Shown here one piece after another: positions 23,376 to 29,013 of a stretch of 61,906 nucleotides of DNA; within the stretch, counting starts at the first letter, position 1; each line of letters begins with the position of its first letter. Where the stretch lies: NCBI GenBank assembly GCA_016217735.1, contig JACRGQ010000033.1, forward strand, positions 1 to 61,906, read 5' to 3'. The stretch comes from Nitrospinota bacterium (GTDB taxonomy: Bacteria; Nitrospinota_A; UBA7883; JACRGQ01). The notes beneath the pieces were generated by a model. The model saw nothing but the letters and a program-made list of their open reading frames with translations. It searched no databases and was not told the origin of the DNA. Both the position numbers and the translations under genes were made by a program.

Positions 23376-23819
23376 TCGCAAATCAATAAATCCCTGAATT
23401 CGGCTTCAATTACACGTAATTCAATAAGAGAAAGCCTATTTAGGCGGTGGTCAGAATCTTTTTGGCTTTGCATTCCACTTCTATCTGCTCAAGATGATAG
23501 TCAAGCGTCATTCAAAAAGCGGCTGTAAGCAAAGGGAACCGCAGGAGGCCCAAATTCCCGGCTAATAAGGTATTGCGCCGGTACAACAGAATTCATTCTG
23601 TTGTTGGCCCGCGAGGGGCCAAGAGGGCTTGCCCCCTTTGGGGACAACCGCAGGATGAATCCTGCGGTACCAAACTTCAGCGCGGCCTTTGCACGGGGGG
23701 CGGTTTTGTCATTCTGAGCGCAGCGAAGAATCTCGTTCCGGAAAGGGATACTTCGCTGCGCTCAGGATGACGGCTGTATGGGTGGCGGCTCCGGATAAAA
23801 ATCGGGTATTCTTACGCGG
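23376..23819. other. Intergenic region with stacked hairpin repeats
   Basis: The 444-bp gap before the permease gene has no convincing gene. The first 180 bp are AT-rich. From about 23565 there are nested palindromes: acaacagaattcattctgttgt (23583-23604) and ccgcaggatgaatcctgcgg (23648-23667), both inside an outer ggtac/gtacc pair. A family-1 repeat follows at 23709. A 42-codon minus-strand reading (23345-23473) was not accepted. Confidence 0.6.
23709..23771. repeat. Palindromic intergenic repeat, family 1 (short, near-perfect copy)
   Basis: The two arms are tcattctgagcgcagcgaag and the near-exact reverse complement cttcgctgcgctcaggatga, around a ttccggaaaggga centre. It is the cleanest copy in the window and could fold into a single long hairpin. 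Confidence 0.8.
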
Positions 23820-27386: not shown

Positions 27387-27450
27387 TCATCCTGAGCCGG
27401 GGGCGAAGTATCTCTTTCCGGAAAGGGATTCTTCGTTGCACTCAGATGAC
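27387..27450. repeat. Palindromic intergenic repeat, family 1
   Basis: tcatcctgagcc at the left and cactcagatgac at the right flank gaagtatctctttccggaaagggattcttcg in two parts. It lies between the family-2 repeat and the merR stop. Confidence 0.72.
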
Positions 27451-27514: not shown

Positions 27515-27889
27515 TCAGCCGCCGTTGAGAATGCTTAAAATGTCGGCCAGCCCTTTTTTGGTCTGGCGCACCGCTTCGATGATGGCGTCCCGCTCGCTGG
27601 CGGTCTTCTTTCTTTTCTGCAGCCGCTTCTTCGCCCCGGCGATGGAAAACCCCTCGTCGTACAGCAGCGATTTTATCTCCAGCACCAGCTCGATGTCCTG
27701 CCGGCTGTAGAGGCGGCGGCCGCTCTGGCTTTTGCGCGGGGTCAGTTCGGGGAACTCGGTCTCCCAGTAGCGCAGCACATGGGTTTCGATGCCGGCGATG
27801 GCGGCGACATCGCTTATCTTGTGGAACATTTTGTCGGGCAGGTTGGGCAACGCCAGTTGCGGGCTTTTCCCCTCGGCGGCTTCACTCAT
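27515..27889 (-). CDS. MerR-family transcriptional regulator
   Basis: It has 124 residues. The N-terminal winged helix-turn-helix covers about 20-90: KISDVAAIAGIETHVLRYWETEFPEL, then SGRRLYSRQDIELVLEIKSLL. A short helix-rich tail follows. No metal- or drug-binding cysteines are seen, and the type resembles the small MerR proteins often found beside ihfA. The target is unknown. The start overlaps the end of the SPOR-domain gene by 8 nt, so it is second in that operon. Confidence 0.9.
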   Translation of the reverse strand: MSEAAEGKSPQLALPNLPDKMFHKISDVAAIAGIETHVLRYWETEFPELTPRKSQSGRRLYSRQDIELVLEIKSLLYDEGFSIAGAKKRLQKRKKTASERDAIIEAVRQTKKGLADILSILNGG

Positions 27890-28715
27890 CGATCACACCC
27901 TCAATGCCGTTGGTTTTCATTTCCCCTATCGCCCGCTTGGCCGCTTCGGCTGTTTCAAACGGGGCGGAGACAACCTTAAATACTTCCCGGTCTTTGCGCT
28001 CTTCCACAATCTCCGTTCGGACACTGGCGGCCCTGAAATGTTTTTCCGCCACCAATGCGCGGTCTTTCAACCAAATGGGGCCTACAATTAGATATTTTCC
28101 GTCAACTTCGGCCATTGGCGCAACATTTAATTTTTCCCCGGCGGTTTTCAGCTCTTTCCAGGCGGCGGCGTCATTGGCCGGGCCAGCCTTGACCGTAAAG
28201 GCGGACATCGGGCGCAACGCCGTCTCGGCGGCGGCGATCACCCCTTTTTTCGCCAGCGATTGCGCATGGCGTTCGGCGTTTTCGCGCAGGAGAAAAATGC
28301 CGAAACGGATGCGCCACCGGGGCGCGGCTGGCGGGGATTCCGCCTGCTTGAGCGCGGCGGCATCCGCCGTTTGCGCCGCCGCGGGCGTTTCCCGCCGCAC
28401 TGGCACATCGATAACCGGAGCGGCATTTGCCGTTACCGCCTCTTCCCGCAAGATGCGCGGCGGAGGGGCGATGGAAACCGGCGCGGCGCGCCGCGCGGGA
28501 GGGGGTTCCGGGAGATTGAGATACAGCATGGCGGCGCCCCCCAGCAGGAGCATGAGCAGCGCGAGCCGCAGCGGCGCGGCCATGCTCTTTCCGGGCCGCC
28601 CCCACTCTTCTTGCGGCATGAAGCGGATGCCGGTGCCGGGCCGCAAAAGATTGAACTCTTTTGAATACGTTTTTTTGGGAGGGGTGTGGCGGGAAGGATT
28701 TGGCTTTTTCACCAT
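27882..28715 (-). CDS. SPOR-domain inner-membrane protein
   Basis: It has 277 residues. A basic cytoplasmic N-terminus of about 48 residues precedes one membrane helix at about 49-67 (LRLALLMLLLGGAAMLYLNL), then a Pro/Ala-rich linker. Two SPOR-like repeats follow: RWRIRFGIFLLRENAERHAQ (about 133) and YLIVGPIWLKDRALVAEKHF with a final FETAEAAKRAIGEMK. SPOR domains bind denuded peptidoglycan, usually at the septum. The ATG lies at the edge of the 54-bp repeat shared with tRNA-Val; TAAAAT is 6 nt upstream and no Shine-Dalgarno is seen. Confidence 0.82.
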   Translation of the reverse strand: MVKKPNPSRHTPPKKTYSKEFNLLRPGTGIRFMPQEEWGRPGKSMAAPLRLALLMLLLGGAAMLYLNLPEPPPARRAAPVSIAPPPRILREEAVTANAAPVIDVPVRRETPAAAQTADAAALKQAESPPAAPRWRIRFGIFLLRENAERHAQSLAKKGVIAAAETALRPMSAFTVKAGPANDAAAWKELKTAGEKLNVAPMAEVDGKYLIVGPIWLKDRALVAEKHFRAASVRTEIVEERKDREVFKVVSAPFETAEAAKRAIGEMKTNGIEGVIDE

Positions 28716-28767
28716 GTCTTCATTTTATGTCAAACCAAAATAAAAATGGTGGGCGAAACAGGGCTCG
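28714..28767. repeat. 54-bp direct repeat, left copy (att-like)
   Basis: It is identical to 28905-28958 except for three bases. It includes a copy of the last 21 bases of tRNA-Val (28747-28767) and ends at the start codon of the SPOR gene. The 137 bp between copies is very GC-rich, has no integrase or gene, and contains the hairpin atccgggc...gcccggat. Confidence 0.75.
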
Positions 28768-28904
28768 GCCACTGTCGCGGCCGCATCACGCTCCCGCTCC
28801 ATCGGCCCCCGCCCGCCGCTATCCGGGCGTCCATGCCCGGATGCGCTCCGCCCTGCTCGCGCCGCGGCGCGCGTTTCGAGCCACACGGCGGCATTGCCAA
28901 GCCA

Positions 28905-28958
28905 ATGTCGTCATTTTACGTCAAGCCAAAATAAAAATGGTGGGCGAAACAGGGCTCG
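28905..28958. repeat. 54-bp direct repeat, right copy, overlapping the tRNA-Val 3' end
   Basis: The partner of 28714-28767, 191 bp apart. Its last 21 bases are the 3' end (CCA, acceptor and part of the T arm) of the functional tRNA-Val, the region where integrases commonly recombine. Confidence 0.75.
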
Positions 28959-29013
28959 AACCTGTGACATCCAGCTTGTAAGGCTGGCGCTCTACCAACT
29001 GAGCTATTCGCCC
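28938..29013 (-). tRNA. tRNA-Val (anticodon UAC)
   Basis: The reverse strand folds as a 76-nt cloverleaf. The acceptor is GGGCGAA/TTCGCCC, the D arm contains AGCTCAGTTGGTAGAGC, the anticodon stem CCAGC/GCTGG encloses CTTACAA, and the T arm is ACAGG/CCTGT around TTCGAGC. The CCA end is encoded. TAC in the loop centre reads Val GUN codons. Confidence 0.95.

Follow-up and report, generated by a model that had tools for sequence, protein, structure and literature searches.

Duplication of the tRNA-Val tail

How did a second copy of the end of a tRNA gene come to lie behind the gene itself? The window (the whole stretch of 61,906 nucleotides that was analysed) contains a 54-bp direct repeat, with copies at 28714-28767 and 28905-28958 that start 191 bp apart and are identical at 51 of 54 positions, the differences being at 28719, 28728 and 28734. 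Judging from the sequence alone, chance is excluded for a 54-base match with three differences at this spacing. The sole tRNA found by ARAGORN in the whole window is tRNA-Val(TAC), at 28938-29013 on the minus strand, and the right copy holds its final 21 bases, from C56 to A76 including the CCA. The left copy terminates within the ATG (28715-28713, minus) of the downstream gene at 27882-28715, whose SPOR domain was confirmed (PF05036, E 4e-8). The first-pass annotation had described the 191-bp spacing, the three differences, the last 21 bases of tRNA-Val and the end at the start codon of the SPOR gene, all of which hold. It had also noted the GC-rich 137-bp interval between the copies. The GC content is indeed 75.9%, compared with 61.2% for the window; that the interval belongs to a structured repeat family was not visible from the sequence alone. 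The features of the locus are as follows, R1 being the structure model described below.

28938..29013, minus: host gene tRNA-Val(TAC), intact (ARAGORN; Rfam tRNA, 77 bits; locus L001)
28938..28958, minus: tail 1, tRNA C56 to A76; begins the 191-bp unit and the right 54-bp copy
28905..28937, minus: 33 nt behind the CCA, duplicated too; aligns with the left part of the spacer at the empty site of the congener G001
28875..28882, minus: antisense arm GGCTCGAA, complementary to tRNA T54-C61; short in the window copy (sequence; score 8)
28768..28874, minus: structured core of the element (R1 match at 28738-28896, 133 bits, E 1.5e-33)
28843..28862, minus: hairpin P3, a GCGC stem with GA on both sides and a small inner stem (R1 alignment; covariation helices 1-2)
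28821..28842, minus: hairpin P4 with a CATGGA-type loop (R1 alignment; helix 3, double changes in 7 of 8 pairs)
28767..28807, minus: hairpin P5, GGCC...GGCC with an inner stem (R1 alignment; helices 4-6)
28747..28767, minus: tail 2, a 21/21 copy of the tRNA-Val tail, forming the closing stem of the element
28714..28746, minus: second copy of the 33 nt behind the CCA, reaching into the SPOR start codon
27882..28715, minus: SPOR-domain gene, the downstream neighbour outside the element (Pfam)

A Pfam search of seven neighbouring ORFs returned SPOR, MerR, ComEC-like, GAPDH, PGK and threonyl-tRNA synthetase domains, some of these being the gene names that we take the domains to indicate, and one ORF had no match. 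No integrase was found among the seven.

The interval belongs to a family of structured repeats

Fifteen copies were aligned to obtain the structure model R1, for which RNAalifold gave 24 base pairs; in 16 of these, at least one sequence has both partners changed. Searches with R1 yielded at least 141 matches (E 0.1) in all 11 genomes of the Nitrospinota family f1, with at least 3-23 per genome, and none in 29 other genomes; across 24 genomes of the phylum, matches were again confined to the same 11. The copy numbers are lower bounds, as part of the first-look candidates were scored per genome (73 in the R1 family search, 7 in a search of 385 genomes). The source genome of the window (G000) itself has further matches to the interval; among those inspected, three are behind tRNA-Ala, tRNA-Ser and tRNA-Met, one is at a contig end, and another (C54, L069) has no tRNA nearby. 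As this piece of about 130 nt recurs behind different tRNAs with a covarying structure, it is a whole unit and not a remnant. The reading of the first-pass annotation, which saw here the scar of an integrated element that had decayed or been deleted internally, is therefore not supported: the same piece gives at least 141 matches in 11 genomes, mostly behind different tRNAs.

The fold is conserved, with covariation. In 91 re-found copies, whose alignment had been fitted to the structure, 94.6% of the pair cells are standard pairs, compared with 68.9% in shuffled alignments, and 488 cells exhibit double changes, compared with 133 (0 of 500 shuffles in both cases). The number of pairs with a double change is 21, against 18.1 after shuffling (6 of 500), and slid structures retain 29-41% standard pair cells. 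By eye, the length of identity behind the two tails differs between copies, ranging from none to at least 60 nt, and many copies have terminator-like hairpins between the tRNA and the element. Tandem arrays with a period of about 190 exist; as draft assemblies, these genomes may show some tandem units collapsed.

With regard to position, we analysed 137 matches, namely the 139 at E 0.01 in the chosen loci minus two that overlap better matches on the opposite strand. Filters on host distance, score and placed ends define the subsets used below: 104 copies for own-tail fit, 48 with both ends placed, 114 for the core tree and 86 for permutation. The nearest tRNA lies upstream on the same strand within 600 nt in 102 of the 137 and downstream on the same strand, within tRNA clusters, in three; an opposite-strand nearest tRNA within 600 nt was found for none. 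Eleven more lack a tRNA and are close to a contig end; for 21, there is neither a tRNA within 600 nt nor a contig end nearby. Among these 32 matches, ARAGORN called a tmRNA at four loci (L044, L124, L128 and L164), and the sequence exhibits tmRNA-like ends at L154 and L162 and tRNA-like ends at L123, L137 and L170. When hosts recognised by motif are counted, 97 of the 137 lie within 160 nt of the host CCA, and the hosts carry 26 anticodon labels, plus tmRNA. A same-strand element is present within 160 nt downstream of 10 of 42 tRNAs in G000 and 18 of 44 in G003, and in these two genomes none is found upstream or on the opposite strand within 160 nt of a tRNA. Outside the analysed set, a strong match (G010:C24, L113) lies behind tRNA-Asp with a full tail copy.

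Rfam, run on six element loci, returned no family for the element itself; its output consisted of hits to tRNA, one tmRNA line that overlaps a tRNA, and lines that stay under the family cut-offs. An exact-pattern scan of viral contigs gave one stretch, which is not an element, and the same scan of genome contigs gave 17. By eye, four of the 17 can be recognised as elements (L090, L091, L104 and, in decayed form, L098), all from Nitrospinota; the other 13 have no called tRNA and are unlike the element. Own-tail copies were also surveyed behind 41 tRNAs at 23 loci, 18 outside f1 and five inside (L003, L012, L019, L020 and L032), and one exceeded the shuffled maximum (L003, 14/17 vs 13); most of these tRNAs were tRNA-Val, so such units may still occur elsewhere in those genomes. 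The ORFs between distant element pairs have, by eye, nothing in common that would indicate cargo. At L181 (G010:C104:10300-12335, minus), a tRNA-Ala(GGC)-like gene seems, by eye, to have an element inside its T-loop, and its 5' part is not directly followed by a tail; this is either a real event or an assembly error.

Both ends of the element tend to match the host tRNA

The 3' end of the element tends to copy the tail of its host, and the 5' end tends to be antisense to the host T-arm. A full tail match comprises 21 nt, from C56 to the CCA. When 64 tails were compared by local alignment, the own tail fitted better than any other in 59 of 104 copies and did not in 45, and the antisense arm fitted its own host best in 41 and did not in 63. 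Permutation of the hosts among 86 elements, with each end placed anew for every host, gave an own tail fit of 13.5/17 against a permuted maximum of 10.4, and an own antisense fit of 11.4/14 against a permuted maximum of 9.7 (0 of 5000 trials each). Among 73 same-genome pairs with core identity of at least 0.65 and different host tails, which are non-independent and in which the arm was placed by its own tail, the own host fitted better in all 73 for tail 2 and in 71 for the arm. Over T54-A59, the arm agrees with the tRNA at 97.6% of positions and tail 2 at 45.1% (48 copies with both ends placed). Part of this contrast follows by construction, since T54, T55, C56 and A58 do not vary among tRNAs and tail 2 begins only at C56. 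The window copy has the full tail (21/21) but an arm of 8 nt, which three of 62 other tails fit equally well or better. We found no description of such host-matched ends in the open-access literature, and on the strength of that search host-matching of both ends appears undescribed, although elements of this kind, the tyrT/RtT repeats, are known.

History of the tRNA-Val site

Among the four congeners compared at the tRNA-Val site, G000 and G003 carry the element; the copy in G002 is decayed and lacks tail 2, and G001 has an empty site. The distance from the CCA to the SPOR ATG is 48 nt in G001, which has no second tail, 222 in G000, 218 in G003 and 190 in G002. The first-pass annotation had proposed a single-copy junction in a relative as a sign of integration and a relative with the same duplicated arrangement as a sign of simple tandem duplication. 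Both exist. The junction is found in the same-genus G001 (L012; 48 nt vs 222 in the window), and DNA was therefore gained at the tRNA-Val site or, less simply, lost in G001. The duplicated arrangement is found in G003 (L010), yet simple tandem duplication does not account for one core behind many different tRNAs. In short alignments, the sequence following tail 1 of G003 matches the left part of the empty spacer, and the sequence following tail 2 its right part; in G000 the sequence behind tail 2 aligns with the left part. The proposal that the tRNA tail was duplicated from the T-loop on is supported. We infer that the original event duplicated the tail and about 30 nt; it can be described either as an insertion of ~191 bp at T55|C56 or, with the same outcome, as a 137-bp insert accompanied by a 54-bp target duplication.

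In a tree of 114 cores, which has many weak nodes, the nearest neighbour comes from the same genome and another host in 37 cases, from another genome and the same host in 18, from the same genome and host in 13 and from neither in 46. Groups within G006, G009 and G010 each span several hosts, and pairs across G000 and G003 share the hosts Val, His, Leu, Arg(TCG) and Met.

Comparison with known systems

The repeats behind E. coli tyrT have been known for decades, to our knowledge with no agreed origin. The element looks like these repeats in kind. In E. coli K-12, three 178-bp units lie behind tyrV (L228). In this tyrT layout the tail recurs with 17/17 matches at +161, +339 and +517 and the antisense T-arm with 15/18 at +61, +239 and +417, the shuffled maximum being 14 for each. 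As in tyrT/RtT (RF00391, rttR), the unit lies behind a tRNA and its fold is closed by an antisense arm and a tail, with a small GA-flanked hairpin. Placement behind a tRNA, with the tail of that tRNA as the ending, is observed in the family (97 of 137 matches within 160 nt of a host CCA, 59 of 104 with the own tail as best fit) and in the window copy (21/21), and pairing of an antisense T-arm with the tail is seen in the permutation and the folds, weakly so in the window copy (8 nt). In contrast to tyrT/RtT, the Nitrospinota copies lie behind many tRNAs and tmRNA within one genome, and the sense half of the T-arm present in the RtT unit was not seen in them by eye. R1 weakly matches two of the three E. 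coli units (15.3 and 12.7 bits; E 0.016 and 0.076 in 63 kb, 0.0004 and 0.0018 in 1.5 kb), and the Rfam RtT model matches all three with 134-138 bits. RtT RNAs are reported to be released from tRNA transcripts (PMC4986893).

Under strict filters and with a positive E. coli control, RF00391 reached its 45-bit gathering cut-off in none of 145 genomes and gave no match at E 0.1 in the 11 f1 genomes. Matches below the cut-off occur in four of the 145, none of them f1. Behind tRNA-Ser of G019, the own tail (17/17) and the antisense arm (16/18) are above shuffles; behind tRNA-Ser of G020 (tail 16/17) and behind three different Ser tRNAs of G114 (tail 17/17), the antisense arms are not above shuffles. 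A tail copy is absent at four other tRNAs of these loci (Arg and Ser(CGA) in G114, Lys and Asp in G020), and no tRNA was called at the candidate locus of G021. R1, applied to 385 genomes, adds G133, G196 and G270. G133 has a tail of 17/17 behind tRNA-Leu with no antisense match found by script, G270 has a tail of 13/17 behind tRNA-Leu and also a tandem locus behind an uncalled tRNA-like end, and no tRNA was called at the G196 match. Units of the same layout, some of them tandem, are seen outside the phylum behind tRNA-Ser and tRNA-Leu at L231 (G114), L235 (G133), L233 and L234 (both G270). The Leu genes there end without an encoded CCA, and the copied tail likewise lacks it.

The T-loop is the usual target of integrases, and islands and prophages at tRNA 3' ends duplicate the tail, so that the tRNA stays intact. 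The element shares the T-loop target and the duplicated tail with them, and differs in its unit of about 190 bp without coding capacity, in having one core behind many tRNAs, in ends that follow the host and in its antisense arm. Between the putative att copies there is no integrase or cargo, only 137 bp, and the single-copy junction is present in G001. Like REP/REPIN sequences with RAYT, the element is short, dispersed, palindromic and non-autonomous; unlike them, it occupies a fixed site behind tRNAs on a fixed strand and has host-copied ends, and no copy flanks a RAYT gene at L218, L219 or L221, where R1 finds no match. MITEs are similarly short and dispersed, with palindromic ends and possible target duplication, whereas the ends of the element follow the host tRNA and are not fixed terminal inverted repeats.

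Origin of the element

On balance we favour, with moderate confidence, the reading that the feature in the window is a tyrT/RtT-type element, structured and non-autonomous and present in many dispersed copies, which is mobile and was inserted at the T-loop with duplication of the tail. The element would be recognised as a folded single strand, of RNA or DNA, and inserted at the T-loop junction T55|C56; the tail and some downstream sequence, about 54 bp here, would be duplicated, which would preserve an intact tRNA. Tandem arrays with a period of about 190 could then result from further insertions or from slippage. Ordinary site-specific insertion accounts for tail 2 but leaves the antisense arm unexplained; the arm may arise as the target is copied during insertion, or template switching between inverted copies may keep it in agreement afterwards. 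The analysis found no mobilising enzyme, and we infer movement, rather than observe it, from the related cores behind different hosts, the filled and empty sites, the fixed strand and the T-loop junction. It counts against mobility that for many copies the own host is not the best fit (45 of 104 for the tail, 63 of 104 for the arm), that the arm of the window copy has only 8 nt and that the tRNA-less matches (21 of 137) are only partly explained.

The main alternative, which we consider possible and rather unlikely, is an RNA acting in cis within tRNA transcripts: it would serve as a switch or processing signal, selection would maintain the pairing of its ends, and rare recombination would spread it. 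In read-through RNA, pairing of the arm with the tRNA T-arm would spoil the tRNA fold, whereas pairing with tail 2 would leave the tRNA intact. The strong covariation, the annotated RNA rttR from the E. coli repeat, the orthologous copies that pair across G000 and G003 at His, Leu, Val, Met, Arg(TCG) and others, and the closer match of the arm than of tail 2 at T54-A59 (97.6% vs 45.1% in 48 copies, at partly invariant positions) are all consistent with it. However, the terminator-like hairpins seen by eye between tRNA and element in many copies may make read-through rare, an element is lacking from the 160 nt downstream of 32 of 42 tRNAs in G000 and of 26 of 44 in G003, G002 lost most of its Val copy with the tRNA intact, and no promoter-like site was found in the window stretch scanned.

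The remaining explanations are far less probable. REP-like palindromes moved by Y1 (RAYT-type) transposases would fit the GGAG ahead of hairpin P5 and the Y1_Tnp-family genes in 10 of 11 f1 genomes; such genes are, however, also present in six of 12 other genomes, all of them without R1 matches. In addition, different palindromes, with no R1 match, flank the RAYT-type loci L218, L219 and L221, and no REPs are known that copy tRNA tails, which makes this reading improbable. The scar of a classical integrated island is more improbable still: the tail duplicated from the T-loop and the empty site in G001 would agree with it, but the interval is a complete repeat found at least 141 times and the seven neighbouring ORFs include no integrase, so that the repeat family largely refutes it. 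Simple local tandem duplication at each tRNA, with no shared element, has the least probability of all; the arrays with a period of ~190 and the duplicated 33 nt behind the tail are as it would predict, but it is refuted by the one homologous core behind many unrelated tRNAs and tmRNA, and duplication may still build the arrays.

With regard to wider significance, these genomes hold a natural population of tyrT-like elements: there are well above 100 matches, sites occur in filled, decayed and empty states, and related copies sit behind different hosts. Origin, mobility and function therefore become testable. If mobile, such elements have ends that are rewritten to match each target; if functional, their action may extend to many tRNA and tmRNA transcripts simultaneously. 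More tentatively, and with somewhat less than even confidence, RtT-type repeats could form a class of mobile, folded elements found throughout bacteria, which enter tRNA and tmRNA genes at the T-loop and rewrite both of their own ends for each host by copying the target, the E. coli tyrT repeats being one stranded example.

Y1-like genes and other palindromes

The genes for RAYT-type Y1 transposases at L218, L219 and L221 are flanked by their own palindromes, distinct from the tRNA element, and RAYT as the mover is not supported, since the RAYT-type loci viewed carry these palindromes and no R1 match. A protein of ~122 aa resembling ISDra2 TnpA (2xo6, E 2e-5), in which the HUH histidines and the catalytic tyrosine appear to be replaced, is encoded at L209:1777-2145 (G000:C53:18276-18644), with relatives at L210-L216. 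This HUH-less Y1-like protein is present in 10 of the 11 f1 genomes (none in G001; a fragment at a contig end in G009) and in five of seven f4 genomes, which have no R1 match, and its gene lies near tRNA-Arg(TCG) in G000, G002, G003 and G006. As a candidate mover it is a lead only.

The window also contains a near-perfect palindrome of 64 nt at 23708-23771, a 43-nt part of which recurs 3680 bases on, at 27403-27445, with 88% identity; this is another dispersed repeat.
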